Shown here: in pieces, positions 1-55,700 of the stretch
Numbering within the stretch: position 1 is the stretch's first letter
Layout of the letters: each line of letters starts with the position of its first letter
Source: Tetmemena sp. SeJ-2015
Taxonomy: Eukaryota; Ciliophora; Spirotrichea; Sporadotrichida; Oxytrichidae
Length of the DNA stretch: 64,000 nucleotides
Direction: 5' to 3'
Assembly (NCBI GenBank): GCA_027382625.1
Contig: JAJKFJ010022255.1
Coordinates: forward strand, 143,062 to 207,061
Notes under the pieces: model-generated
Database searches by the model: none
What the model was told of the DNA's origin: nothing
Seen by the model: the letters and a program-made list of their open reading frames with translations, nothing else
Translations under genes and position numbers: made by a program

Positions 1-100
1 AGGCGAAAGGCAGAGGACATCTTCTACGTGAGTGGGTTGAGTTAGTGGAGGTTGGCGGCGTATTATGAAGAACTAGCCATTGTTAAGGGATGGAATTTAA
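1..100 (+). CDS. orphan coding fragment at window edge
   Basis: Reading the frame that starts at base 3 gives about 30 residues with coding composition, including the stretch AEDIFYVSGLSQWRLAAYYEE, with one UAG read as Gln. Base composition is much richer in GC than the AT-rich leader that follows (about 105-205). I do not recognise the family. It is probably an internal or 3' block of a gene lying mostly to the left of the window. No pointer partner was found in the window, so its true ends are unknown. Confidence 0.4.
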
Positions 101-207
101 AATATATTATCTCCACCTATTTGAAATTTACTGTTAAACCAACTACCAACTTATCTATTGAGTGGCATTTGGAACGAGAAATAATAATTTGAAATAAATT
201 AAAGAGA

Positions 208-765
208 ATGGCCGACAACGAAAACGACGCAGCAGCTGCAGGTGAAGAGGGAGAAGACAAGACCGAGTACAAGATGCTGGACGAGGACATAAAGTACGAG
301 ATCAACGACTGCTTCGACATCTTCGATAAGGACAAGGACAACTAGATTTCGTATGTGGAGTTGGGCACCTTGCTCAGGTGGCTGAAGTTCAATCCAACTG
401 AGAAGGAGATGAAAGAGTTCGCTTAGGAGTTTGACTAGAACTCCTCCAACCTCATCAACAGGTTCAATAGAGTTGAATGAATATTTGTTTGCTTGTGTTT
501 AAGGAAGACAGTGATGAAGATTGTGGACAGGAAGCTGCAAGACACTGACACCATAGATGAACTGATTGAAGCCATGAAGCTGTTTGACAACGACAAGGAT
601 GGGAAGCTGTTAGTACCAGAGCTGAGGTGGGCTATGACCAAGCTGGGAGACCCCATGGACGAGGGCATGGTGGACGAGATGATAAAGGAAGTAGACGCTG
701 ATAACGATGGACTGGTAGACATAATTGAATTTGCTAAGGTGTGCTTCAACATCAAAGGAGAAATG
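208..765 (+). CDS. EF-hand (calmodulin-like) protein, 3' end unresolved
   Basis: The ATG at 208 follows an AT-rich leader. The protein begins with an acidic/Ala stretch and then has four EF-hand positions. Loop 1 is at residues 40-51 (D-x-D-x-D-N-x-I), loop 2 is degenerate around FDQNSSNL, and loops 3 (113-124, DNDKDGKLLVPE) and 4 (149-160, DADNDGLVDIIE) look canonical, so calcium binding is likely. A 42-nt GT..AG intron (462-503) restores the frame; two in-frame UAGs before it encode Gln. The spacing and the GTLLRWLKFNPTE stretch resemble calmodulin-like axonemal proteins of the EFCAB2/DRC8 type, but plain calmodulin-like protein is the safe call. After about 765 composition becomes AT-rich and the frame drifts on without a family-like end, so the last coding block is probably elsewhere in this germline locus. 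Confidence 0.8.
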
Positions 766-929
766 AATTTCTACCCCTCCTTCTTAAGAACAACTATGAT
801 AATTTTTAGGCTTATTTTGTGGAATGAAAGAGTATTATTCATCTTTAAGGAAGTAGTTGGTGTATTTTATAAATTCATAACTGACTAAATGTTTAGTGAT
901 GCTGCTATGGTATGGATGGATATTGTGTG

Positions 930-1036
930 AATAGGACTTTGAGCAAAACAAGAGACAGGTGATTAAGATGTTGTTGGACCAGATCTTGGTGGTCGACTTG
1001 TCAGTGCCCAAGGTGGTGAAGCAGCAGTACGATTGA
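930..1036 (+). CDS. V-ATPase subunit G, 3' block (MDS 2, scrambled)
   Basis: This block encodes the C-terminus of vacuolar ATPase subunit G: NKRQVIKMLLDQILVVDL, then SVPKVVKQQYD and a UGA stop at 1034-1036, matching the conserved MLL..V..V.L.VP end of the family. It starts with AATAGGACTT (930-939). The same 10 bases end the 5' block at 2337-2346. Joining the blocks at one copy gives 348 nt, 115 residues plus stop, in frame and of normal length for the family. The 3' block lies 1.06 kb upstream of the 5' block on the same strand, so the germline order is permuted. Confidence 0.92.
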
Positions 1037-1289
1037 GCTGCTGAGTTAACTTGCGTGTGGTAGAGAGGGAATGATATTGAATGTTTATAGGAATGCCATA
1101 GCATAAGTTAAAGGATTAAATATCTATAATTTATTTGTTCTCAAACTTAATATAGGATGAATACGAAAGGATGATCGTCGATTGTAAAAAAAAAGAGATT
1201 AAAATAACTTCTAAGACCTTATTAATTATTACTTTTCTTTAAATCTGATTATTAATACTATTTCTTTAATTTCGATTCTGTAATGGAGG

Positions 1290-1660
1290 TCTTACAGTTA
1301 TATTTGACGATCAGTCCTTTGACTTTTCCACCACCTCGGCGGGCGTCCGTTCTATCGATCCATGCCATTTTCATTCCCATTTCAGATTCCCATGTTCAAT
1401 TTAGTTTCGGGATAATTTAAGATTTTCGGGTATCTTATAGATGAATTTTAGGATATCGCACAGGACTTATTGGATTATTATCTAATTGCGTAATTTATTT
1501 TAATTTATGATTTCGAAGGGATTCGAACCCAATTCCGATTATTCTAATTCCCGACCGTTGCCAGTAGGCCACCCGGACTCCTCCAACGCCCTCCCTCTCC
1601 ACTTTATTTTATACTTCTTCCCCCCGATTTTCCATTCGTATTTTAGCCATAATAAAATTA
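1290..1660 (-). other. GC-rich island with tRNA-like segment
   Basis: This stretch of the 1.04-1.77 kb spacer is clearly richer in GC than its surroundings. On the minus strand, 1592-1511 contains a perfect pol III B-box-like GGTTCGAATCC and, about 40 nt before it, TGGCCTACTGG, one mismatch from an A box. Acceptor and anticodon stems do not pair convincingly, so it is not a functional tRNA as read; a tRNA-derived repeat or decayed tRNA is possible. The minus strand is also open in two frames here, so an unidentified coding block is an alternative. The flanks (1040-1290 and 1660-1770) show nothing I can support. Confidence 0.3.
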
Positions 1661-1773
1661 CAATATTTTATCTATCATTCCCACAACTCTCTCTTTTAAT
1701 CGCTTATTAAATTATCAATTATACTTATGCACAGATCTAATAATTAGTTTATCTCCTTGGATTATATGGGCAC

Positions 1774-1789
1774 TCACTGCACTTGAGTG
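1774..1789 (-). CDS. SF-assemblin, terminal block with stop (scrambled)
   Basis: On the minus strand CACTCAAGTGCA (1789-1778) is followed by G-TGA. The same 12 bases end the large SF-assemblin block at 2382-2393. Joining them gives ...STQVQ and a UGA stop at 1776-1774, the expected place for the protein to end. Only 41 bases separate this terminal block from the middle block (1830-1957), while the block that belongs between them lies more than 500 bp away. Confidence 0.8.
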
Positions 1790-1829
1790 TGTAAATAGAT
1801 AAATGAGATTTGTATGATATTTTTGTTTG

Positions 1830-1957
1830 ACTCTCAAATCTGTTGCGAGACTCTTTGAGCACATCCCCCTTGAGGCCTGCGAATCTGTCCTCCACAATTG
1901 CAATTAGTCTTTTCTCCATATCTCTCCTTGCTGCATTCTCCTGTTCAAATCTCTCCT
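1830..1957 (-). CDS. SF-assemblin, middle block (scrambled)
   Basis: The minus strand encodes a coiled-coil segment including ENAARRDMEKRLIAIVED and LKESRNRFES, with the alternating charged heptads of SF-assemblin/beta-giardin. The block ends in TTTGAGAGT (1838-1830); those 9 bases also begin the next coding block at 2713-2705. Joined at one copy, ...RNRFES reads directly into VEHLKQCLEND in frame. On the chromosome this block comes after the block it should precede. Its upstream end is near 1957; a UGA interrupts the frame just beyond. The preceding N-terminal block was not found in the window. Confidence 0.88.
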
Positions 1958-2095
1958 AGATCCTTCAAGGCAATAAAAGCACTTCAGATACACTCTCAGT
2001 AGGATATTGCATGTGGAGTGTCAGAATAAATTAATAAGAAAAGAGAGAGAGGTAAAGAGCGCATTAATATATTTACTATAAATTATTAGCAAGAA

Positions 2096-2346
2096 ATGGA
2101 AGGAAGCGTCAAGAATCTCCTCGAAGCCGAAAAGGAGTCCCAAGCTATCATTGAAGCTGCTATGAAGCAGAAGACCCAGAGAGTCGCAGACGCCAAACTC
2201 TACGCAGAACAAGAAATCAACAAACACAGAAAGGAATACGAAGAGAGATTCATCGTGGAGTCTGCTAGAAAGCAGGCTGAAAATGCTGCCCTCACTGAGT
2301 ACGATGAAAAGGCTGAGGAAGATATCAAATTGATTAAATAGGACTT
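2096..2346 (+). CDS. V-ATPase subunit G, 5' block (MDS 1, scrambled)
   Basis: The ATG at 2096 starts MEGSVKNLLEAEKESQAII, the typical subunit G N-terminus (L..AE..A..I...A), followed by a charged helix of Lys/Glu/Ala/Gln. Subunit G is part of the peripheral stalk that links V1 to Vo in the proton pump of acidic organelles and contractile vacuole membranes. Coding sense ends at 2346 within AATAGGACTT (2337-2346), which is repeated at 930-939 where the C-terminus begins; reading straight on past 2346 gives no family similarity. The block sits between two SF-assemblin blocks of the opposite strand, so two loci are interleaved. Confidence 0.93.
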
Positions 2347-2381
2347 ACCTACATTTCATTCTCAGTCGATCTATTGTTGCA

Positions 2382-2713
2382 TGCACTTGAGTGGAGTTAA
2401 GTTTATTGCAGGTATCTTCCAGAAGGGAGAGTAGGGTTTCTTCATTCTCCTCTCTGTCTCTCTTTTCAGTCTCGATTTCAGTCTTGATTTTATTGACCAT
2501 GTCCTTCAGCATTTCAAGAATTGCTTCTTCAGTTTCCTCTCTTGCCCTGCGTTCGTTGGCCACCAATTCCGAAAGTCTCTCCGCCTCTTCATCAATTTTA
2601 GCCTTGACCTAAACATCACTCTCTTCTCTCTCGACTGTCTCTGACTTAATCACATCTTGCAGTTTGGGGAAGTCATTTTCAAGGCATTATTTCAAGTGTT
2701 CCACACTCTCAAA
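2382..2713 (-). CDS. SF-assemblin C-terminal block (scrambled)
   Basis: The minus-strand frame reads VEHLKQCLENDFPKLQDVI, then an uninterrupted coiled coil with ANERRAREETEEAILEML and ENEETLLSLLEDTCNKLN, strongly matching the C-terminal half of SF-assemblin/beta-giardin. These proteins form striated fibres attached to basal bodies and fit the ciliate cortex. The block is bounded by pointers TTTGAGAGT (2713-2705) and CACTCAAGTGCA (2393-2382), partnered at 1838-1830 and 1789-1778. The 2347-2381 interval between this block and the V-ATPase G 5' block is short spacer. The N-terminal part (roughly 50-80 residues) is missing from the window. Confidence 0.9.
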
Positions 2714-2782
2714 CTCTACTTATAATAAGTGAATTAAAAGTATAAGTGAGGAGAGAGAAGTGATAGTGATAATTTATTAAAA

Positions 2783-5700
2783 ATGAGATACAGGCTTAAA
2801 CTTATGAAGAGTATAAAGAACAACTTCATCAATCTGCCCAAGCAGTCTCCATTACGTCAGTCAGTTTCAACTCGACTGTTCTCTCACGACACTAACAACT
2901 GTACTCCCATAAAAGTTCAAATCTTCTCCTCAGATTACTCTAATGTACTTACTTGTATTCTTTTTTAATTTATCTTAGGCCACATTTTACTTTGGATTTG
3001 CGAATGGTACGTCAGAAGACAACAACACAGTAGAAATAAGTGAAGAAGTAGGTAATCTGCTCAATCTCTAGGATGGAGATTTAGTGCAGTGCAGCATTGA
3101 GTACAGTTATTAGAAGCTGAAGGAGGTGGAGCTAGAGCCTCTAACGCCTGAAGACTTTGAAATAATAGAGAGGAACAGTGAGTGGGTGGAGGACTCACTT
3201 CTCAACCAAATAGGAGTGTTCTACCATAACTAACTATTCGTCATCTTCGTCACCTACTAGCCCAACTAGGTCACCACTATCAATCTCAGATGCAAGATTT
3301 AGAGTCAAGTCAGCCAAAGAAACCAGGACAGCAATGAATAAACTGACAGTGCTAAGTGCTTCTATCTCACTGTCGACAGTGAACTCCACATCTAGCCTAA
3401 AGTAAGGACTCCATAAAAGCTGGATGGAAAGGGGAAAGAAGAGGATAAAAAAGAAGAGGAGTTTGCAAAGTAGCAGAACAATAAATTGCCTTAATAAAGA
3501 GAGATTCTCTTATCAAGATTCAAGCATGATCCTACTATCAAGAACTTTGATGAGATATTTATAGACCAGAGCTATGTGCAGCATTTCAAAGAAGACCAAA
3601 TAGTTAAGGTAGAAATTCAAAGAGCAAGCAAAATTACAAGTCTAGAACTGTCTGACTATCAAGTCTTGAAGTAGCAGAAGCAAGCAGATATTCTTCGACA
3701 GACTTAATATTCAGAGCTATTCTTAAAAGTAAAGTTTAGAGAGAGTGAGAGTTCAGGCTTTTGCTCTATAAATCAAACCCTATTTGAGACTCAATACTAG
3801 GATTTTGGAAAAATGAAACTATAAATGGCTAATTCCTCAGCCTCATTGAATAATGATCAAGAAACTCTACTTGCAATAATCAAGACAAATATTGATATAC
3901 TTAAAAGTGGAATCAGACTTTATGGAGAAACTTAGAAAAATGCTACATTCAAACTTATGAAAGACCTAATCTGCAATTACCTAGCTGAGGAGTCACGGAA
4001 GAGAAAATTCTTATTGATTAACGATAACCAGACACTCCTTTTGAATGCAGCTAATCTCAGACAAGGATTGAAGATTGTTAAATCAGCGGGAGGATAGGAC
4101 GATGAAAATCTAGTTTATAATGACTTGTAAAGTAAGTTAACTTTCTTATAGTTTAAAGAAATTTTTAGACCAACTTAAGTAAATTTTGAAGAAAGACAGA
4201 AGTTTATATCTCCATGTCAAGTTCTAAATCGATAGAGCAAGTAGACAACTTATTCAGAATCTTAGAGCAGAGAAATATATCAAGATCCTTGAGAATTTAG
4301 ACTGCAGTACTAAGATTTAATTAGCATTAGATCCAATATAAAGTGATGAAAACTAAGTTGATTAAAGTTCAAATTTGGACTCTCTAGAAAAACTGATATC
4401 CAAGAAACTATTCTCATCAATCACTGAACAAATTGAAAATAGAATGTTCAGAGATAGAGGAGCCAACAAATCTTGCTTAATATATGGGCCATAGTCAGTT
4501 GGAAAGACTTATCTCTGCAAGAATCTACTTAAGGAATTTTCTAAGCTACTTTAAAATGTTCACGTCTAGTATATTGATTGCAATAAGCTTCAAGTAAATA
4601 TATCCTCAACAGAAGGAATCGATATAGCTCTGGAATTTCTAAAATTGAAGTTGAATTTCTCAAGTCAGTTGCAACCAAGCTTAGTAATCCTAGATAACTT
4701 AAACGCCATCTGCCAAGTAATTAGCAATGATGAATAGCAAAATCCTGTTGATTAAGTCAAATCCTTGAAGTTCAGCAAGCTCATTCTAGATTTCATTAAG
4801 CAGAGCTTAGGGGTTAAGGTAATTGGAATAGCAAGGCATTTCTCTTCTTTGAATAGCAAACTACTAGACGTTGGTTACTTTGATAATATGATAGAGATGA
4901 AGCCTCCCACCAAAGAGTAGAGATATTCCTTAATCTAGGAAGTTTTAGCTCCACCAGAATGCTAAACCAAGGAAATATTGCTACAAAAGCAAGCTTAAAT
5001 GACAGAATACTTTGTAGCCAAAGACATTTCACATGTCTTTGCACGAATAAGCCACCTCCTAATTGGAATAAATCATTAGGAGTACGAGAAAATATTTGAA
5101 GAGCAAGTTAATCAATACAAGAAAGCTTGTTTCCCGTAAACTTAGAGTATCTCTGAAGGTGTTCCAGATTGGGATTTAGAAATAGGAGGCTTGAAAGAAA
5201 TTAAAGAGCAAGTAGAGGAAATATTTGGAGTTACTCAAAGATACTCAATTTACTTTAAAGGTCAAAAGATAAATCAAGGGTTGCTGCTCTATGGCCCACC
5301 AGGCTGTGGAAAAACTTACTTAGCCGGAGCAATTGCTAAAAAATTCAACATTAACTTTATAAGTGTAAAGGGACCAGAGCTTTTGGATAAGTACATAGGA
5401 GCTAGTGAATAAAATGTGAGGGATTTATTTGACAGAGCGAATGCTTCAAAGCCTTCAATCTTGTTCTTTGACGAATTTGATTCACTCGTACCTAGAAGAG
5501 GTTCAGGAACTACTTCAGTCACTGACAGGATAGTAAATCAGTTTCTCTGCTATCTCGATGGAGTAGAAGGCAGAGATGGAATATTTGTTATGGCGGCAAC
5601 CTCTCGACCAGACTTAGTTGATGTGGCACTTTTGAGGCCAGGGAGAATAGATAAGTCAGTATATTTTTTAATATATTGTGGCTTCCCCAATTTTGAAGAA

Positions 5701-6137
5701 CGCTCGGAGATAATAAAAGTCTATCTGTCCAAATTCCAATTCAAATCCTTATACAGCGATAGGGCCTAGCATGAGGAATTTATTTCGACACTAGCCAGAA
5801 AGAGTGAAAATTTCACCTCCGCTGATATCAAAGGTCTCATTCAAAATGCTTTTTACTATATTTTTGAAAGCTTAACTTGCCAAAATGAGTAGGGTTCTTG
5901 ATGAGTGCCATAGTTCAAACACTGAACCTGACTTTAGCATAAATGAGGATGATATCATGGAGAATCTGAGACAAAAATATATTTGCTATAAATTATAAGG
6001 TTTCAATGAGACTATTTGTTAAAGGCATCAATGACTAGGAAAGAATGAGATTCGAATCGATATATAGGAAATATCAAGACAAGGGAGGTAATCCACAGAA
6101 AGAGGACTTAAAGAAATAAAAGCAAATACTTTAATGA
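2783..6137 (+). CDS. PEX1: PEX1, peroxisomal AAA+ ATPase
   Basis: PEX1 works with PEX6 to extract the ubiquitinated PTS1 receptor from the peroxisome membrane. The start at 2783 gives IKNNFINLP, the usual PEX1 opening, then the N-terminal double-psi barrel (LLNLQDGDLVQC). D1 has a Walker A (YGPQSVGKT, ~residue 542) and Walker B (LVILDNLN, ~610). D2 has a canonical Walker A (YGPPGCGKT, ~812), Walker B (ILFFDEFDS, ~868) and the PEX1 signature region with [18 protein letters not shown] and [17 protein letters not shown]. Introns at 2945-2978 (34 nt) and 4132-4168 (37 nt) are GT..AG. Near the 3' end two small insertions must be removed: 5891-5906 between ATGAGT repeats and 6010-6034 between TCAATGA repeats. 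The result is 1081 codons including the UGA at 6135-6137, close to other PEX1 proteins. Many UAA/UAG codons encode Gln. Confidence 0.93.
5885..5906 (+). other. candidate micro-IES in PEX1 (pointer ATGAGT)
   Basis: ATGAGT occurs at 5885-5890 and 5901-5906. Without excision the frame hits UGA at 5899. Removing one repeat plus the bases between (16 nt) lets the PEX1 frame continue into [16 protein letters not shown] 25-nt GT..AG excision starting at GTAGGG and ending at CATAG also restores frame, so a minimal intron is the alternative. Confidence 0.6.
6003..6034 (+). other. candidate micro-IES in PEX1 (pointer TCAATGA)
   Basis: TCAATGA occurs at 6003-6009 and 6028-6034. Removing 25 nt joins ...[18 protein letters not shown] in frame, matching the conserved PEX1 C-terminal S..ER.RFE.IY motif. 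A 25-nt GT..AG intron (starting GTTTCA, ending TAAAG) is almost coincident and gives the same frame, so the two explanations cannot be separated from one sequence. Confidence 0.6.
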
Positions 6138-6199
6138 ATACATACTTAATTTTTAATAAATAAAGCACGAAGCAGAATACTCGTTGGTAGAAATTAAAT

Positions 6200-7666
6200 T
6201 CATCTTGAAGTTTTTGCCTTTTTATTTGATGGAGTATGATTTTAGCTGTTTGTTTTGCTTTCTGAAGAGTAGTGGCCTTTATGAAGATCTTATGGGTCTT
6301 GATATAGATCATGCTTACTCTGTACCTTCCCTTCTACAAGCTATTTCTTTTCTGAGTAGTAAAAATAAAATTTAAAGTAGTCTTTACCCTGTGTATTCAA
6401 AGTAGCATGCTGCAGATTCTCAGTCGTTTGATGTTTGTTAACAGGCGAGTACTTCTTACTTTAACCCTTAGCTGAGTTGAGATACTTGGCTTCAGGATCA
6501 ATTTTACTTCCCTCCTTTCTCTCTTCATCATTCCGATGTGAGTTATTTTTAGACTTTCGTTTTCCTTTTTTGCCAGTTCTCTAAGGACCATTAGCTTCTT
6601 CTTCTTCCTCTTACTCATTTTCATCTTCAGGCGGCTCAAGAACGTACTTTCTAAGCCTTATCTGTTCTCTAAGTGCTTTTGCATCTTTATCTCTGAAACA
6701 CAAGCCGAATGAGCAGAACCAAGCGCAGAAAACAAAAGTACCGCAAGTTAAGAACACGTAGCCCATATTGCCCATGTCTCTCTCTAAGTCTTTGCTAATG
6801 TGGGATTGGCAAGATCTAAAATTAGGCCCTGATGTGAAGTCAGTGAACAAAAGCTAATAAATAATTAATAGCAGAGTTTGAGAGTTGCACAAGCCAGAGC
6901 AAGAGTAGGTTCTTTCAAGCTCACTCATATAGTTTATGAGATCATAGTCCCACTTGTAGGAGTAATCTTACGCCTGAAGACACCCGGTCAAGTTTAAATT
7001 CGTGCCTGTAAAGTTCTTACCAGTAAATTGATAGGAAGCGTACGCAGTTTTATTGTAAGAAGGACTGCAAGGGCAAATGTCTGTGCACATAAGCTGCTTG
7101 TAAAGTTCTACATAAGTATAAAGCTTATTATTTAAATAAAAATTTAATGTGAGTATCATCAATTGAGGTGACAAATTCATTGAGGGCGAATCCATTCCAA
7201 TAGTCAGTATTTTTAGATTAGCAGTGATCTGATAAAGCCTCAGACCCATAGAATCCAGCGGCTAAACAAAGTACTCCAAGTAGATAGTAAACCGCAAAAA
7301 TAGAGAAGGTCAGAACCCCAAACTATAAATACTTAGAAGATATCGCAAATTTTACATGACAAGATATTATGCAGTGCTTTATTCGGGTAACAAGGAGAAT
7401 TCCCAAGAAGCAAAGAAAGACAAGCAGCACTCCCATTACAATTCCAATATAGAAAGTCATCTCAGAGAGATTTTAAGGCAAGTATTTCCCGTAAGCAAGC
7501 CAAATATACTGCCTTTTAGCTTTGATAGCCCAGTAGAGAGATATAGCTCCACAGCCCTAAAATGATACTGATATGATGTAATTCTTACAATTAGTCCGAC
7601 GGAGAACAGCGCCACAAAAGCCTTGACTAACCTAAGTGGAAAATAACTTATAGTCAAACAACACAT
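6200..7666 (-). CDS. tetraspanin-family membrane protein
   Basis: Three exons give 461 residues. Start ATG is at 7666; introns are 7557-7588 (32 nt) and 7124-7172 (49 nt), both GT..AG, and the stop UGA is at 6202-6200. Membrane segments are predicted at about residues 14-37, 59-82, 104-126 and 275-297. The large loop between the third and fourth (about 127-274) holds Cys pairs in CTDICPCSP, NLTGC, CSGLC and FRSCQ and several NxT/S sites, a tetraspanin-type EC2 loop although the classic CCG is not present. After the fourth segment comes an unusually long (~160 residue) Lys/Glu/Asn-rich cytoplasmic tail. A further in-frame 36-nt GT..AG intron could exist in the tail without changing the frame. 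The gene is convergent with PEX1 (63 bp between stops). Role: probable plasma-membrane organiser; specific function unknown. Confidence 0.8.
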
Positions 7667-7792
7667 TTATAATCATTTTTAATTGGATAAAAAGTTCAAA
7701 TATTGAGAATAGATGATCGGGATTTTATTTTTAAAAGGAAATTAACATAAAGTTGATTAAAAACGAATTATCTAAATGAGTTATCTTATTCT

Positions 7793-10700
7793 TCAATCTT
7801 AATCTCCTTAGTGAGTTGACAATATTTCTTGAATCATTTTGTCTTCTTCTAAATCCTAATGGTCTTGATTTTGTTAATACTCATTTAAGATATCACTTTC
7901 GCTAAGTGCTTAGCTCTATTTACTTTTTCTCATCCTATCATCAACTGTTATCTTAAAATATGTAGTGAATTTATTTATCTCTGGATATATATTTTACTAA
8001 GTCCCTGTATTTTACCTGGTTATCACTTCCACTGCTGGTATCATATAAATAAAAATTTGATCTAGGTATATCCTTACTTTGTAATACTGAGGATTTCAAA
8101 GATTTCTTTTTGTTTAGGATGCTACTTGCTTTCGTGGCCACTTCTTTTAATAAAATTAAAGCAAGTTCTTAGTTACTTAAGCCTGTAAAATTACTTTTAG
8201 ATTGCCTTTTGCCATCTTTTGAGATAAAGAAGGCGGATTTAGTTTGGTGGCTATTTCCAATTTCATTTTAAGATTTTAAGTTTGCCTTATCAATCAGACT
8301 TTTGTGTGAGGTATCACTTGCTTGACTCATGTTTATCATATATCGAGGATTGGTGCTCACCACTTGGCTTAATAAAGAAATACATAAAGTGATATTTATA
8401 GCTCTGTAGGTTGTGGGTGATTAAGGTTTCTGGGGCTGGCATGTCATGATCTTGTTTTTCTAATTCGTGGATTAATTCCTGCAGGTATCTGCCTAGTTTC
8501 TAGTCCTTCTTGAGGTTGGATAAAATCTTCTACTGCTTGGTAGCATCCTCCTCATTAACACAAATAACTATTAGACATCTTCAGATTGAGTATTCTTATC
8601 ATTCATTTCATCTTATTCATCTTAAAGAAAGAGAATAATATTCAGCAACTGGCTCATCAATTGCCTTAGTAGGATGTATTTTTGCTTTTGGCTTCTTTTG
8701 AAGTTCTTGAGTTTAGTCTTCTTTATTAAAAAGTAAATACAATGCTTTCATGAAGTTGTGCTACCCATGCTCGCTCTCCTCACCTAAGTCTGTGTCCACC
8801 TTCAATTACACAAGCAGGTTTCTCTTAAAATTAAATGACACTTTGAATCTATCATACTATCATTCTCATTGAATTAAAAAGCAATTATACTTTTAGAAGT
8901 TAAATTATTTTTAGATTAAAAAAATTTCCTAAATTAAGTTCTATAAATTTCTTCCCTTCTTATTAAAAAAAGAGGGTCACGTATTTACTGCTTAAATATA
9001 AATAAAATTATTTTAAACTATTCTAATACTACTAGAAATTAAATTAATTGAACTTTAGTAAAATGGTTAACAATAAATTTTTTTGTAATTGAACATAATA
9101 TGAAAGAAATTTGTTCACCAACGCCTATAGTCCAATAAAGACTACTATAAAAATAGTATTGATTTAGAACTCTGAAATGACAGTTGTAGATCTCTATTTT
9201 GGCCCTTTTATTTGAGCATAATTATCAAATATAATTTTTTATAATATTTTAAGTTTGAATATCTTCCTAAAGAGTGTCTCTGATTTGGCTCTTGTTTTTC
9301 TGGAACCCTCTTTTTCTTTTTCATCTTGAGTTTACTCTTGAATTAAGTCTTTCTTCATGCCAGCTTGTCTGAGAATTTTATCTCTGCGCAGATAGAACTG
9401 CAGTTTCTCAACGTTCTTATTCCCTATTCTTCAAATTTATAACCTTTTTATAAGGATTAAATATACATTAGAAGAAATGCTAAACACTATACTTCAATAA
9501 ACCTTATTTAAGATTTTAAGATTTTTGTTGTTGATTTTGTTGGACAAAATTAATTAGTAGCAAACATTACTACGGAGAGTTGTAAGGCAAAAGAAATATT
9601 TTTTCTAATAATTCTATATCAAATTATGAATAGTTTTTAGAAGAGTAAGATTATCAAAAGAGCAAATCAATGAAAATTAGCTTAATTTAAAATTTTATAG
9701 AGTATAAAAATAGCTATTAAGTTTATTCAGATGATCATTTTAAGTCTTACTAAAAATAGTTTGTTCATTCATTTTCGTAACATTAAGAAAAATACCCATT
9801 AAAGAAAAATTGTCATCGAGAAGCTTTAAAATATGTTTCTTGCAAGCTCAAAAGTAAAACTTAAAAAATAAAGTTTTCAATTTAATTGTTTCTTATGCTT
9901 TAAATGCCAGGGGATTATTGAGAACAAGTTCCCCTTTGGAGCAAAGAACGTCTATCTGTCTCAAACTTTCCTACAACTTAATAAAGATTATTTATCTTTT
10001 CTCTGAGCATGTTATTGTCTTCATTGATTTCTGCCTCTTTAAGTAGGATCTCATACTTGTGACTGTTGCCACAGAGACATAGAGTAGTGTAGAGCTTAGG
10101 AATGGCTTTTATCAACACATTTTTCAGTTAAAAGTACATCTTAAATGCAAAAGTCGCAAAGAAAATTATGTTGCTCATCAGGATAATCACGAAAAGAAAG
10201 TTTTTAAAAGTCAAATTGATTTTATCTATCTGTAAAATGTTAAAATTGTATCCTAGTGGATTATAAGACTATTATATTAATTTAATATCATAGGGACTGG
10301 GCTTATTTTAAAAAAAATTACGTATTTTCTTAAAGCAAATAATTTTTAACTCTCATATAAATCTTTTGTTTTTAAAAGAAGGAATTTAGTATTTTCAGTT
10401 AGATCCACACCTGACGAATTTGAAGTAGTGCCAGATGATGTGTCTGTGGAGTCAACCGATACTATAAAGAAGATACCACAGAATATAGTCATCAAAGAAC
10501 ATATTATAGAAAGTGTCTCAAGCTAGTTTAGAGTTAATTAATTTAACATGATTATAATTTCTTTAGAGTGATTGTGATAAATGGGTTCTTTGTAACATTT
10601 ATACTCATGAAGAATATAAGCATAAGCAGCACCAAAAGAGCTTAAATAAAATAATAAATTCTCATAATAAGCTTAGGTGATGACTCCATATTAGACGAGG

Positions 10701-49700: not shown

Positions 49701-52700
49701 ATAGTTTGAAATCTAAAAGAATAAAATTAATTAAGTATTTTGGTAAGCTTGATTTGAGCAGATGAGGAAACCGATGTCATGATGGAGCCTTAAAGACACG
49801 AGGAATTGTAAATGGAGGAACTTTTGAGACTTAGAGATTTCAATTAGCTAATATACATAGAACCTCCAGATGCATCTGCTTAAGTCATTGAACAGCGAGA
49901 ACCTTTTATTCTTAAAAAAAATACTTAAAATAATTCTTTCAAAAATCAATAAAACTATTTAATTATTTGTCTTTTTACCTTTTTTTAATCATTTAGACTC
50001 TTAGAATTAAAATGTCGTTATTAAAACATTTATTTTAAATATAGTGTTTATGAAAGAGATATAATTCTAAATGTCAACAGATCAAAAATTTTAATTGAAA
50101 ATTTAAATAGAGGAAAATATAATAATTCAAATAAGTTTAAATTATTATAATTTAAATTCATAAATTACATTCAATTTAAAAAATGAAACTTTTTTAAAAA
50201 AATATTATTGCTGATATATAAACTTTCCTAAAGCATAAGTAACTTAACACCTCAAAAATTATGAATAATTTAAAAATATTTTTATTGATGTTTGATTAAT
50301 GTCAAGTGTAAGATATTATTAAATTGCTATTGATTTTGCAAATTTCTAAATTAATCAATATCTATAATTGGCAAGAATCTGAATATTCAAGCATTTCAAT
50401 TTGGTGCGAGTTTTATAGTCTTACTTTATTACATAAGCAGTCATATATTTATTAATTCTACAAAATATCTGCGTTCACAAACTTAATCTGACTCGATTGT
50501 CATACACAATTCAACTATCGCTAGCCAAGCTATGAGTATCGAATGAGTGCCAAAATTTTATCTAGGACTTAGAAGAACCACGCTGAAAGAATTACCAACG
50601 AGAAAGGGGTTCATGAGTATACAGTGAGTCTCTTCAATGGCTTCTGAGCTTCTCCGCTTATCATGATGAAAGGAAGAAAGGAATTCTACCTTGTAGTAAC
50701 TCATTTGGAGACTTGATAGAAGTACTCACACAATTGCGCTACTGTTGGAGCATTCACTCTTTTCAAAATTCAGGAAATGTTGTGAAGGTTTCTTGAGGAT
50801 AATCACTCTATCCTTCTTTTCAAATGAGTGGATATTTACTCAAGCTTCAACTGCTTCAAGAGAGCGTAGCGCATATTTCAAGGAAATCTTACTACACTAC
50901 AGCAGCAGCCTTTATTTCACAAAGCTGCCTAACTTCATCTGTACCCAAAGCGATTTAGAATCATTCGAGCCTCCTCTTTATCTCTGATCGTAATCAGAAA
51001 CAATCCTGGTAACTCATTCATTTTTAATCCCTTTTTGTATTTTTTTTAAAGTTACACTTGAGAAAGCCAATGTAGATGAGCCTCAGAAACCAAATGCGGC
51101 CCTAACAATAACTCAAATAGAAGTGCGAAGCTCCACCCAAATAATATCCAGCAGGTATCTCTATCAAGGTGTGATAGACCACAAAAATCTATATTGCCAT
51201 CATACGAGATCGAATTTCCAACATCGATACATGCTTTAGAAATTATCGACCCCATCATCCTTGAAATATTAGTGATAAGGCAAAGGATGCCAAGTCAAAG
51301 TGGTTTATCAAAAATACACCATGTAATAGCACTCTTCTCTGAAAGATCTCAATGAGTGGACTTAAAGACTGCGAAAAGAAAATCCCAATCCGGAAAGTAC
51401 ATGCCTACTCATTAGATTAGCTTAAGAAATCTGTGAAGCGTCTATGCTTACCTTTAGCAAAGCGGTAATTGTCAAAGAGAGGAGAACATGACTCAGCAAT
51501 TCCATCCTTGGCAGTTTCGTGGTACAGGTGGCATCTTTTCAAATAATAATAATTATATTCTAAAATTCTTGAAACTTAATTATACTCTACTGTTATATTT
51601 AATCTATACTATTATCGGGGTACTCTACTCCGCATTTCATCTAATAAAATACAACTGACCTAATCTGATTATAAATTTTAAAAATGAGGATGCCTCAGAG
51701 GCGCAACTGCTCCGACAGCTTAGAGAGCTTCTTGGATTCTTTCCTTGAGCACACCAACTTCAACCTCGGTAGACCCTCCTACCTTAATGACTGCAACCCC
51801 ACCGGTAAGTCTTCCAAGTCTCTCCTAAAGCTTCTCCTTATCGTATTCTGAGGTGGCTCCTTCGATCTGATCCTTAATGCTCTCAACTTTCTCACCGATA
51901 TCATTCTTCTCTCAAGCAGCTCCCATGATGATTGTCTTGTCATTGACAGCAAAACTACTTGACGTTCAAGGTTGAAGTTGGTGTGCTCAAGGAAAGAATC
52001 CAAGAAGCTCTCTAAGCTGTCGGAGCAGTTGCGCCTCTGAGGCATCCTCATTTTTAAAATTTATAATCAGATTAGGTCAGTTGTATTTTATTAGATGAAA
52101 TGCGGAGTAGAGTACCCCGATAATAGTATAGATTAAATATAACAGTAGAGTATAATTAAGTTTCAAGAATTTTAGAATATAATTATTATTATTTGAAAAG
52201 ATGCCACCTGTACAACGAAACTGCCAAGGATGGAATCGCTGAGTCATGCTCTCCTCTCTTTGACAATTACCGCTTTGCTAAAGGTAAGCATAGACGCTTC
52301 ACAGATTTCTTAAGCTAATCTAATGAGTAGGCATGTACTTTCCGGATTGGGATTTTCTTTTCGCAGTCTTTAAGTCCACTCGTTGAGATGTTTCTGAGAA
52401 GAGTGCTCTTACATGGTGTATTATTGATAAACCACTTTGACTTGGCATCCTTTGCCTTATCACTAATATTTCAAGGATGATGGGGTCGATAATTTCTAAA
52501 GCATGTATCGATGTTGGAAATTCGATCTCGTATGATGGCAATATAGATTTTTGTGGTCTATCACACCTTGATAGAGATACCTGCTGGATATTATTTGGGT
52601 GGAGCTCCGCACTTCTATTTGAGTTATTCTTAGGGCTGCATTTGGTTTCTGAGGCTCATCTACATTGTCTTTCTCAAGTGCAACTTTTATAAAAATACAA

Positions 52701-55700
52701 AAAGGGATTAAAAATGAATGAGTTACCAGGATTGTATCTGATTACTATCAGATATAAAGAGGAGGCTCGAATGATTCTAAATCGCTTTGGGTACAGATGA
52801 AGTTAGGCAGCTTTGTGAAATAGAGGCTGCTGCTGTGGTGTAGTAAGATTTCCTTGAAATATGCGCTACGCTCTCTTGAAGCAGTTGAAGCTTGAGTAAA
52901 TATCCACTCATTTGAAAAGAAGGATAGAGTGATTATCCTCAAGAAACCTTCACAACATTTCCTGAATTTTGAAAAGAGTGAATGCTCCAACAGTAGCGCA
53001 ATTGTGTGAGTACTTCTATCAAGTCTCCAAATGAGTTACTACAAGGTAGAATTCCTTTCTTTCCCTTTTATCATGATAAGCGGAGAAGCTCAGAAGCCAT
53101 TGAAGAGACTCACTGTATACTCATGAACCCCTTTCTCGTTGGTAATTCTTTCAGCGTGGTTCTTCTAAGTCCTAGATAAAATTTTGGCACTCATTCGATA
53201 CTCATAGCTTGGCTAGCGATAGTTGAATTGTGTATGACAATCGAGTCAGATTAAGTTTGTGAACGCAGATATTTTGTAGAATTAATAAATATATGACTGC
53301 TTATGTAATAAAGTAAGACTATAAAACTCGCACCAAATTGAAATGCTTGAATATTCAGATTCTTGCCAATTATAGATATTGATTAATTTAGAAATTTGCA
53401 AAATCAATAGCAATTTAATAATACTATCATCAAATTAATATAAATAAAGAACTAAAGCTAAAAATTGAAATATAATATAATCGTCAAGATAAAATGCACC
53501 GCCCTTCAAGTCTGCATAATTTTTAATTTGAAGAGAAAGAACTAGACTGAAATGATATATTCTAAAAGGATGTACTTAAAAATATATAAATCTGTGCTCG
53601 ACTCAGTTGAACGAGAAATATAAACTGCTCCTCCAGACTGGAATCTAAATTATAAAGCACAAATTCTACTGCAAAATATTTTTTGATTGAATGCTTTGTT
53701 ATTCTTGAAGGTGCAATTATTAAAGATTACTTTTGAGTCATCCTTGATTTAAAGAGCTCCTCCATTGGCTGCAATATTTATTTAAATATTTATTAACTAT
53801 TTGAGTCGAAGACTAGATTAGTAAGTTCTCCACTGCTAATAGTCATAAAGTTATATATTCCTCCATTGGTTGACACGGCATTCAAATATTGAGAGTTACT
53901 ATCCTTATAAACTGCAACTTCCTGAATATAGAACATTCTTAACAAATAATTACAACATATCAATATATTCCGTTGAGCATATAGCAAATATTTTGGACCT
54001 TGATAGTAGAAATAGTAAAAGAGTTTATATTCTAAAAATATCCCAATCCATAAAAGGTAAAGGATTAGGAATAAGAAGATCTTAACAGCTTTAGAGCAGC
54101 TGAAATGTTAAAATTTATGTTCTAAGTGGATGCTAAATCATAATTATAATTTAATATTTGGAGTAAATAAGTTACATTTTAAAATAGAAGATTAAATTAA
54201 ACAGAATTTAGATTCATATAAATTATGTTTCAACTTATTTAAAATGCCCCTGTAAAGTTACTATCAGATATTGTAACTTCTGTAACTTTGAACACATAAA
54301 ACGCAAGATAGAGATCTGTGCTGCCATCGAAATCCGTAAAATAATAGTCCTACACAGTGAAAGTATTTCTTTATACTGTAAAAGATTAAGTAAAGGCAAC
54401 TTGAATTTATAATTTATAATTTATTAGGAATTAAGTATCCCTAATGGGCATATAATACTTAATCGATTTAAAGTAATTCACAGGCGTAACTCCTTGATCA
54501 GTTGTGCCACGTCACCGTGAAAGCCCAGACGTGCAACTTGAATTAATCCACCTCTTGCTCCAGCTTCTTATGCAAGAGTTGATCCTGAAGTGAACTTATA
54601 CTATTTTGGTTTTAATTATAAATTTTAAATAACCAAAATTTCATTATTGCGTTATTTGCAACAAAAATAATTATTAATATTATAGAATGCTCATCATTTA
54701 TTTTTTAATTTTACATTAGGATGAGTCTGCTTCTCGAATTAGTAGCTTAATAAGTGCTGCTTTTAGAAAATAATAGATTTACATTCTAAAATTTTATTCT
54801 TTGTTTTGAAATAAACAGTTTTACTGAAACTTTTACTTACTTTTTTTCAAATTTGTAATGATTTTCTTTACTTGTAATTATTTTAGCAAGGAAAATCTAA
54901 AATTTAGTTCTCCTCATCTCCTTAAAATAAATATTTTACATGTGAATTAAATGATCACACTTCATCATTCAATTATATTTAAGTTTAATTCCAAATCATT
55001 TTGTAAAATAAAACTATGAACAAATATCTTTAAATTGTTTTATTAACAATTATCTCTCTCCTAAATACTACTTATAATAATATGAAATAAAAGTGAACTC
55101 ATTGAGCTCAGAATATGCCTTTGCATTAATATTGATTGACGAGTCTGCAAGGAGGATTGATGAAGAATTTGTTTTTGTCATTACAGCAGATACTAAAGAT
55201 CCAGAGATGGCTGCAGTTGTGTTTGTCAAATTTATAAACTTGAAAGATAATTCTTGATACTGAGTTATATTTAATTCAAATTTAATTTTCACTAGATTTA
55301 AAGAACGTAGAATTTTTGTTCAATAGATTTATTAGTTATTTAATTTAAAAAATAGGAAATTAAATATGAGTAGTGTAAAAAATACATCCCTCTTAGCAAT
55401 AGCTGTTTTAATATGTTGTGTGTTCTATTTAATTAAATTTCCAAATATTTATTATCATTTATTATAACTCAAATAAGCTAGTTAAATTTGTTAAAATTTC
55501 AACTTATAATATTATAATTAATCTCTACTTAAATTTATCAATGATTGAGACTTTCTGAGAAAGTCTTTACCTAAATATGTGATTATATTTTATAAGACTT
55601 TCATTGTTTGTTTTTAAATCTAAAATTTTAAGTTTTAAAAAATTAATGAAGTAAATAAAATCATGAAATAAAAGATGGAAAAATTATTATTCTATATAGG

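Follow-up and report, generated by a model that had tools for sequence, protein, structure and literature searches.

The window we analysed, a 64,000-nucleotide stretch of DNA from Tetmemena sp., lies on a contig of 207 kb (C3057) and carries near its left end a gene for subunit G of the V-ATPase in two pieces. The 5' block, a macronuclear-destined segment, extends on the plus strand from the ATG to a short repeat, pointer a, at 2096-2346. The 3' block, also on the plus strand, extends from the other copy of this repeat to a TGA stop (1034-1036) at 930-1036. The initial annotation had described the gene as scrambled, the 3' block coming before the 5' block, and this is what we find: 930-1036 precedes 2096-2346 on the same strand. 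The two blocks had also been said to share AATAGGACTT. The window holds exactly two copies of this 10-bp sequence, one within the 3' block (930-939) and one at the end of the 5' block (2337-2346), and the match is exactly 10 bases long and can be extended in neither direction. We translated with ciliate code 6, in which TAA and TAG encode glutamine and TGA is the stop. Joining the blocks with a single copy of the repeat (2096-2346, then 940-1036) gives a subunit G of 115 residues that ends at TGA and aligns with its relatives without gaps, which bears out the product that had been proposed.

The joined protein matches the Pfam family V-ATPase_G (PF03179) with 63.8 bits over residues 3-101, the gathering score being 28.6; the 5' piece alone scores 43.8 bits, and the 3' piece alone has no Pfam match. 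The alignment with the Stylonychia lemnae protein covers 115 of 115 residues at 75% identity, has no gaps, and is continuous across the junction. A closer relative reads through the junction in a gapless alignment of 97 of 97 residues at 89% identity, and the protein of Halteria grandinella aligns over 115 of 115 residues, again gapless, at 49% identity. Gapless alignments extend over 115 of 115 residues for the relatives P0002, P0005 and P0009, and over 97 residues for P0001. The G proteins of the relatives P0003, P0004, P0006 and P0007 stop at ...KLIK or ...KIIK, which we infer to be the place where a reading in the standard code would stop at the TAG codon of pointer a. In S. lemnae the G protein is encoded on a contig of 621 bases, which suggests that the gene has a one-gene chromosome in that species. 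An 80-base stretch at 2025-2105, just upstream of and over the start of G, matches another contig (C2561:4140-4219) at 78%.

The presence of AATAGGACTT in both blocks means little by itself, because a 10-mer of this kind is common in the genome and in shuffled windows. It occurs at 727 places in the 146-Mb assembly, compared with 512 for the reversed control, and for this reason we dropped its uniqueness as evidence; 0.49 copies are expected per window, and two or more copies were present in 7 of 100 shuffled windows. The evidential weight is that the repeat sits at the junction, in the register fixed by the protein alignment. To put numbers on this, random pairs of 50-base stretches from the locus were compared in one fixed register and the run length was scored. 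The run observed for pointer a (at least 10) was reached in 13 of 98,814 trials. The corresponding counts for the three pointers of the second gene described below are 34 of 98,773 (pointer b), 1 of 98,788 (pointer c), and 0 of 98,820 (pointer d). Among the 100 places listed, AATAGGACTT also forms plus/minus pairs 434-583 bases apart on contigs C74, C142, C477, C597, C797, C851, C1159 and C1225; they look as if they belonged to the inverted ends of another repeat family, and are probably unrelated to the role of this sequence as pointer a.

The G locus is interleaved with an SF-assemblin gene on the minus strand, which was absent from the initial annotation. This gene is divided into four blocks. 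S0, the start of the gene, occupies window positions 1-20, with its ATG at 20-18, and runs left to -283 (C3057:142778), so that most of it lies outside the window. S1 is located at 1830-1965 and S2 at 2382-2713, whereas S3, not delimited at its 3' limit, consists at 1774-1789 of the end of the last codon and a TGA (1776-1774). S0 and S1 share pointer d (TCCTAGATCCTT, 12 bp), one copy of which is found outside the window at -283 to -272 and the other at 1954-1965; pointer b (ACTCTCAAA, 9 bp; 1830-1838 and 2705-2713) is common to S1 and S2, and pointer c (TGCACTTGAGTG, 12 bp; 1778-1789 and 2382-2393) to S2 and S3. As derived from the pointers, the sequence to be eliminated would include 40 bases between S3 and S1, in place of S2 (1790-1829), and 35 bases between the G 5' block and S2 (2347-2381).

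S0 was located through the relative P0043, which has two matches that together span C3057:142759-143068 and one match each on contigs C635 and C4368. The joined SF-assemblin has 250 residues if translation begins at the ATG that lies closest to where P0043 begins; an alternative in-frame ATG of S0, 20 codons upstream, makes 270 residues possible. The four-block protein of 250 residues, scored with S0 from C4368 and the other blocks from C3057, reaches 33.6 bits against PF06705, a narrow margin over the gathering score of 30.6. Partial joins score 30.9 bits without S0 and 25.0 bits for S2 with S3, and S1 alone has no match to the SF-assemblin profile. Residues 2-172 align gapless to P0043 (171 residues, 66% identity) and residues 28-246 align gapless to P0021, in both cases across junctions d and b. 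The join at pointer c leads to an in-frame TGA after ...KLNSTQVQ at a length like that of the homologues; the register of this junction is based on the restored stop and on the protein length and similar end of the relatives, as the alignments end at residue 246. Some of the SF-assemblin protein queries used in the comparison with relatives carried a wrong N-terminus of seven residues, MQYPTES. A short intron near 1965, which goes with that N-terminus, was rejected because the relatives and S0 show a block boundary. The possibility that S1 and the G 5' block form one segment of a divergent SF-assemblin/G chromosome was dropped, since S0 lies to the left of the window and pointer d ends S1 at 1965. 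On C3057 the frame of S0 is broken by two 1-base insertions (window 6-8 and about -160) that are absent from C635 and C4368. These are probably errors of the long-read consensus, and other frames in the window need to be read with care.

Along the plus strand, the pointer copies start at -283 (d1), 930 (a1), 1778 (c1), 1830 (b1), 1954 (d2), 2337 (a2), 2382 (c2) and 2705 (b2). They spell the word d a c b d a c b, in which all repeats are direct and every pair alternates with each other pair. Read along its own strand, the SF-assemblin gene has its blocks in the order S2, S1, S3, S0, the gene order being S0 to S3. The G 3' block lies between S3 and S0, the G 5' block between S1 and S2, and the two G blocks enclose S1 and S3. 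Each locus thus has segments in a spacer of the other, as in the loci that Braun et al. (PMC5940158) call interleaved. Both genes show what defines a scrambled gene, namely blocks out of gene order, direct repeats whose 9-12 bp fall within the 2-20 bp of pointers, and frames that are restored when one copy is kept. The pointer lengths are consistent with the published average for scrambled pointers, 11 bp (PMC6765146).

If all four pairs are recombined on paper, both genes come out intact on a single linear molecule, and no circle forms. The order on this molecule is the left flank, the G 5' block, the G 3' block with S3, then S2, S1, S0 with an EF-hand gene, two short spacers, and an AAA gene. 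Recombination of one pair or of any three pairs produces a circle with gene pieces, and recombination of any two produces none. A circle-free outcome is not rare, as it is obtained for 504 of the 2520 direct four-pointer words. Repeat words account for 24 of these 2520; with the SF-assemblin order fixed, pair a can be placed in 28 ways, 4 of which yield a repeat word.

The EF-hand gene extends on the plus strand from 208 to about 759 (PF13499, 79.7 bits with a 42-base GT..AG gap at 462-503 removed). It is arranged head to head with S0, the start codons being about 190 bases apart, and its frame meets no stop before the TGA at 928-930, which overlaps the first base of pointer a; coding beyond about 759 is putative. 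The AAA ATPase gene (2808-5901, plus strand) contains two AAA stretches, with 174 bits to PF00004 for 4129-5901. These are preceded by an open frame at 2808-4292 in another phase, and because of this change of phase there is probably an intron or an eliminated sequence near 4100. The space between the G 3' block and S3 harbors an insertion of about 0.5 kb (1153-1648), which is present on C3057 and C4368 and absent from C635. It belongs to a repeat family with at least 41 matches (40 of 134 candidates scored) at identities from 73%, has imperfect inverted ends as seen by eye, and is apparently a heterozygous insertion between the two scrambled genes. A tRNA in this repeat was considered and rejected: tRNA-like boxes were seen by eye only, ARAGORN returned none in the window, and Rfam returned none for 1100-1700 (E up to 1). 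Far to the right, at 50314-53423, the window contains an inverted repeat whose 1093-base arms (98% complementary, 202 bases apart) are flanked by arms of 360 bases (100%).

We searched the whole assembly (146.2 Mb in 5213 contigs) for other copies. With 7 of 7 candidates scored and a limit of E = 0.001, there are four matches to the G blocks: one to the 5' block, on C3057 itself, and three to the 3' block, on C3057, C4368 and C635. A second intact copy of subunit G, which the initial annotation had named as a possible refutation, was looked for, and none is present in the 146-Mb assembly; nor do the four matches just given, from all 7 candidates at that E limit, include a joined G copy. The protein of the G 3' block is identical on all three contigs, with two substitutions on C635, both synonymous, and none on C4368. 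S0, the left copies of pointers d and a, and the G 3' block are also found on C4368 and C635. These two contigs stop near window position 1773, short of the S3 coding end. C3057 is the single contig that supports this coding end, the G 5' block, S1 and S2. Among 348 variable substitution columns in about 7.1 kb, the odd one out is C3057 in 3, C4368 in 105 and C635 in 238, with all three differing in 2; among 62 gap columns it is C3057 in 7. Because C3057 is the odd one out in only these 3 substitution columns and 7 gap columns, it looks from the sequence comparison like a consensus in which two alleles, those of C4368 and C635, are mixed, and not like a third locus. The comparison of alleles does not mark the blocks out, because the spacer left of S0 (98.6 and 96.9% identity) is nearly as conserved as S0 (99.0 and 98.3%).

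C635 and C4368 end in the same 127 bases. The germline genome of Tetmemena sp. was, according to the assembly description (PMC9797194), obtained by merging SPAdes contigs with k = 127 and PacBio contigs, and the shared ends are as would be expected of such SPAdes contigs. A search for a continuation of the two contigs found their 27-base end motif on those two contigs only, and on no third contig.

Taken as a whole, we are confident that the locus is micronuclear, i.e., germline DNA of a hypotrich-type ciliate with two interleaved scrambled genes, G and SF-assemblin. We read it as DNA awaiting rearrangement because the junction repeat is exact, the 5' block is single, and the match to relatives is gapless. 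Further support comes from the length of the contig (207 kb), from the absence of CCCCAAAACCCC from the window, in which three single CCCCAAAA are present, from the many matches to the DDE_3 transposase, and from the second scrambled gene within the same 3 kb. DDE_3, which we take to be of the Tc1/mariner type, the family that includes the TBE elements, has at least 150 matches in the genome (150 of 921 candidates scored), and 3 of 14 control genomes are positive as well. The G+C content in 2-kb steps is 34-39% at 1-8000 and 18-29% in the rest of the window, except for islands of 30-34% at 10-16, 42-46 and 50-54 kb, a pattern that fits sparse gene segments in germline-limited DNA. The initial annotation had regarded the scrambled G gene as direct evidence that the window is germline DNA needing rearrangement. 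The germline part of this statement is supported; the word direct is slightly too strong, even if none of the alternatives considered below accounts for the observations, and the description was incomplete, as the locus contains two interleaved genes and not one.

An alternative explanation is a misassembly, in which the assembler placed two pieces of an ordinary gene the wrong way round and the shared 10-mer marks where it joined them. C3057 does have small private insertions resembling those of a noisy long-read consensus, the region 1760-2760 is fully matched on no other contig, and no third contig carries the end motif of the allelic contigs. However, 10 overlapping bases are too few to bring about a join of long reads, and four exact pointer pairs are found at gene junctions on both strands. 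In addition, on two further contigs S0 ends at pointer d and the G 3' block starts at pointer a without the 5' block. We therefore consider a misassembly very improbable. It is slightly less probable still that the blocks are a duplicated and decayed pseudogene pair with the real genes located elsewhere. Scrambled loci are often tied to local paralogy (PMC9797194), and SF-assemblin paralogues exist in the genome; however, those listed are 31-54% identical, and the assembly contains no further G 5' block match or full G gene. The blocks are also complementary, overlapping in their pointers only, the joined frames are open (with S0 as on C4368 and C635), and both substitutions of C635 in the G 3' block are synonymous.

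Least credible of all, to the point of being negligible, is a reading of the window as intron-bearing macronuclear DNA, or as blocks that are transcribed one by one and joined by trans-splicing of their RNAs. Splicing does have a likely example next door, as the 42-base GT..AG gap of the EF-hand gene is most likely an ordinary intron. However, cis splicing cannot reverse the order of blocks, which supports the initial annotation in setting introns aside; the junction repeats of 9-12 bases, of which one copy is kept, are unlike splice sites, and a contig of 207 kb is not a gene-sized chromosome of a hypotrich.

If the locus is germline DNA with two scrambled genes, the blocks would be joined in the living cell at pointers a, b, c and d during macronuclear development, with one copy of each kept, and the DNA between the blocks would be discarded. 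By analogy with Oxytricha, where RNA-guided rearrangement is described (PMC5940158, PMC9797194), RNA templates may guide the joining. The G gene would presumably end up on a small chromosome of its own. As to the origin of the pointer order, it may have arisen when a segment with both genes was duplicated and alternate copies were then lost; duplication with loss of alternate copies is a published model for scrambling, as outlined in PMC9797194. A single duplication over G and SF-assemblin with loss of alternate copies, leading to d a c b d a c b and to a topologically coupled unscrambling of the two genes, is a possibility that we regard as rather doubtful. The pointer order does not follow from a plain tandem duplication into two copies; it takes either a permuted unit or a third, partial copy. 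Traces of decayed copies were sought in six comparisons of the supposed paralogous stretches, and 0 of 6 reached p < 0.05 (p 0.08 to 0.97). As proof of one duplication the repeat-word order is weak, because 4 of 28 placements of pair a give such a word once the SF-assemblin order is given.

Similar arrangements have been described in Oxytricha trifallax, where, in the account of interleaved macronuclear loci and 'Russian doll' genes by Braun et al. 2018 (PMC5940158), segments of one locus likewise lie inside the spacers of another, and the reverse. According to the counts reported there, scrambling affects most interleaved loci (272 of 387 'interleaved only' contigs), and pointer orders are classed as repeat and return words. 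The Tetmemena locus differs from the cases covered in that account in two respects: two small genes on opposite strands jointly form one four-pointer repeat word, whereas the words in O. trifallax are discussed there per macronuclear contig, and there are six blocks only, without the deep nesting of the 'Russian doll' genes. Another close comparison is with the work of Feng et al. 2022 (PMC9797194) on scrambling in Tetmemena sp., whose genome is of the same kind; the assembly analysed here shows traces of a similar recipe. The figures given in that study put the Tetmemena loci that need translocation or inversion at 13.6%; the study ties scrambling to local duplication and describes overlapping and nested loci. 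With respect to the duplication-decay model as presented there, no residual similarity was found here between the exchanged segments. The adjacent S1 and S3, with a 40-base spacer replacing S2, resemble the odd-even genes of the same source; however, in the present case S0 stands to one side of the S3-S1 pair and S2 to the other, with blocks of a second gene interspersed.

We found no paper on the scrambling of this gene pair, V-ATPase G and SF-assemblin, in the open-licence literature. Scrambling, interleaving and repeat-word orders are already known in Oxytricha, and scrambling together with nested loci in Tetmemena; what is new is the particular locus.

The raw sequence marks the window as germline DNA that requires rearrangement. 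With about 3 kb, six blocks, four pointers and two genes on opposite strands, the locus is a compact test case for the order of joining. Since its pointer pairs alternate, one or three joins would release distinctive circles and full joining none, which could separate a stepwise from a concerted RNA-templated assembly. The combined order of the two genes also bears on the question whether scrambling may begin with duplications that exceed one gene.
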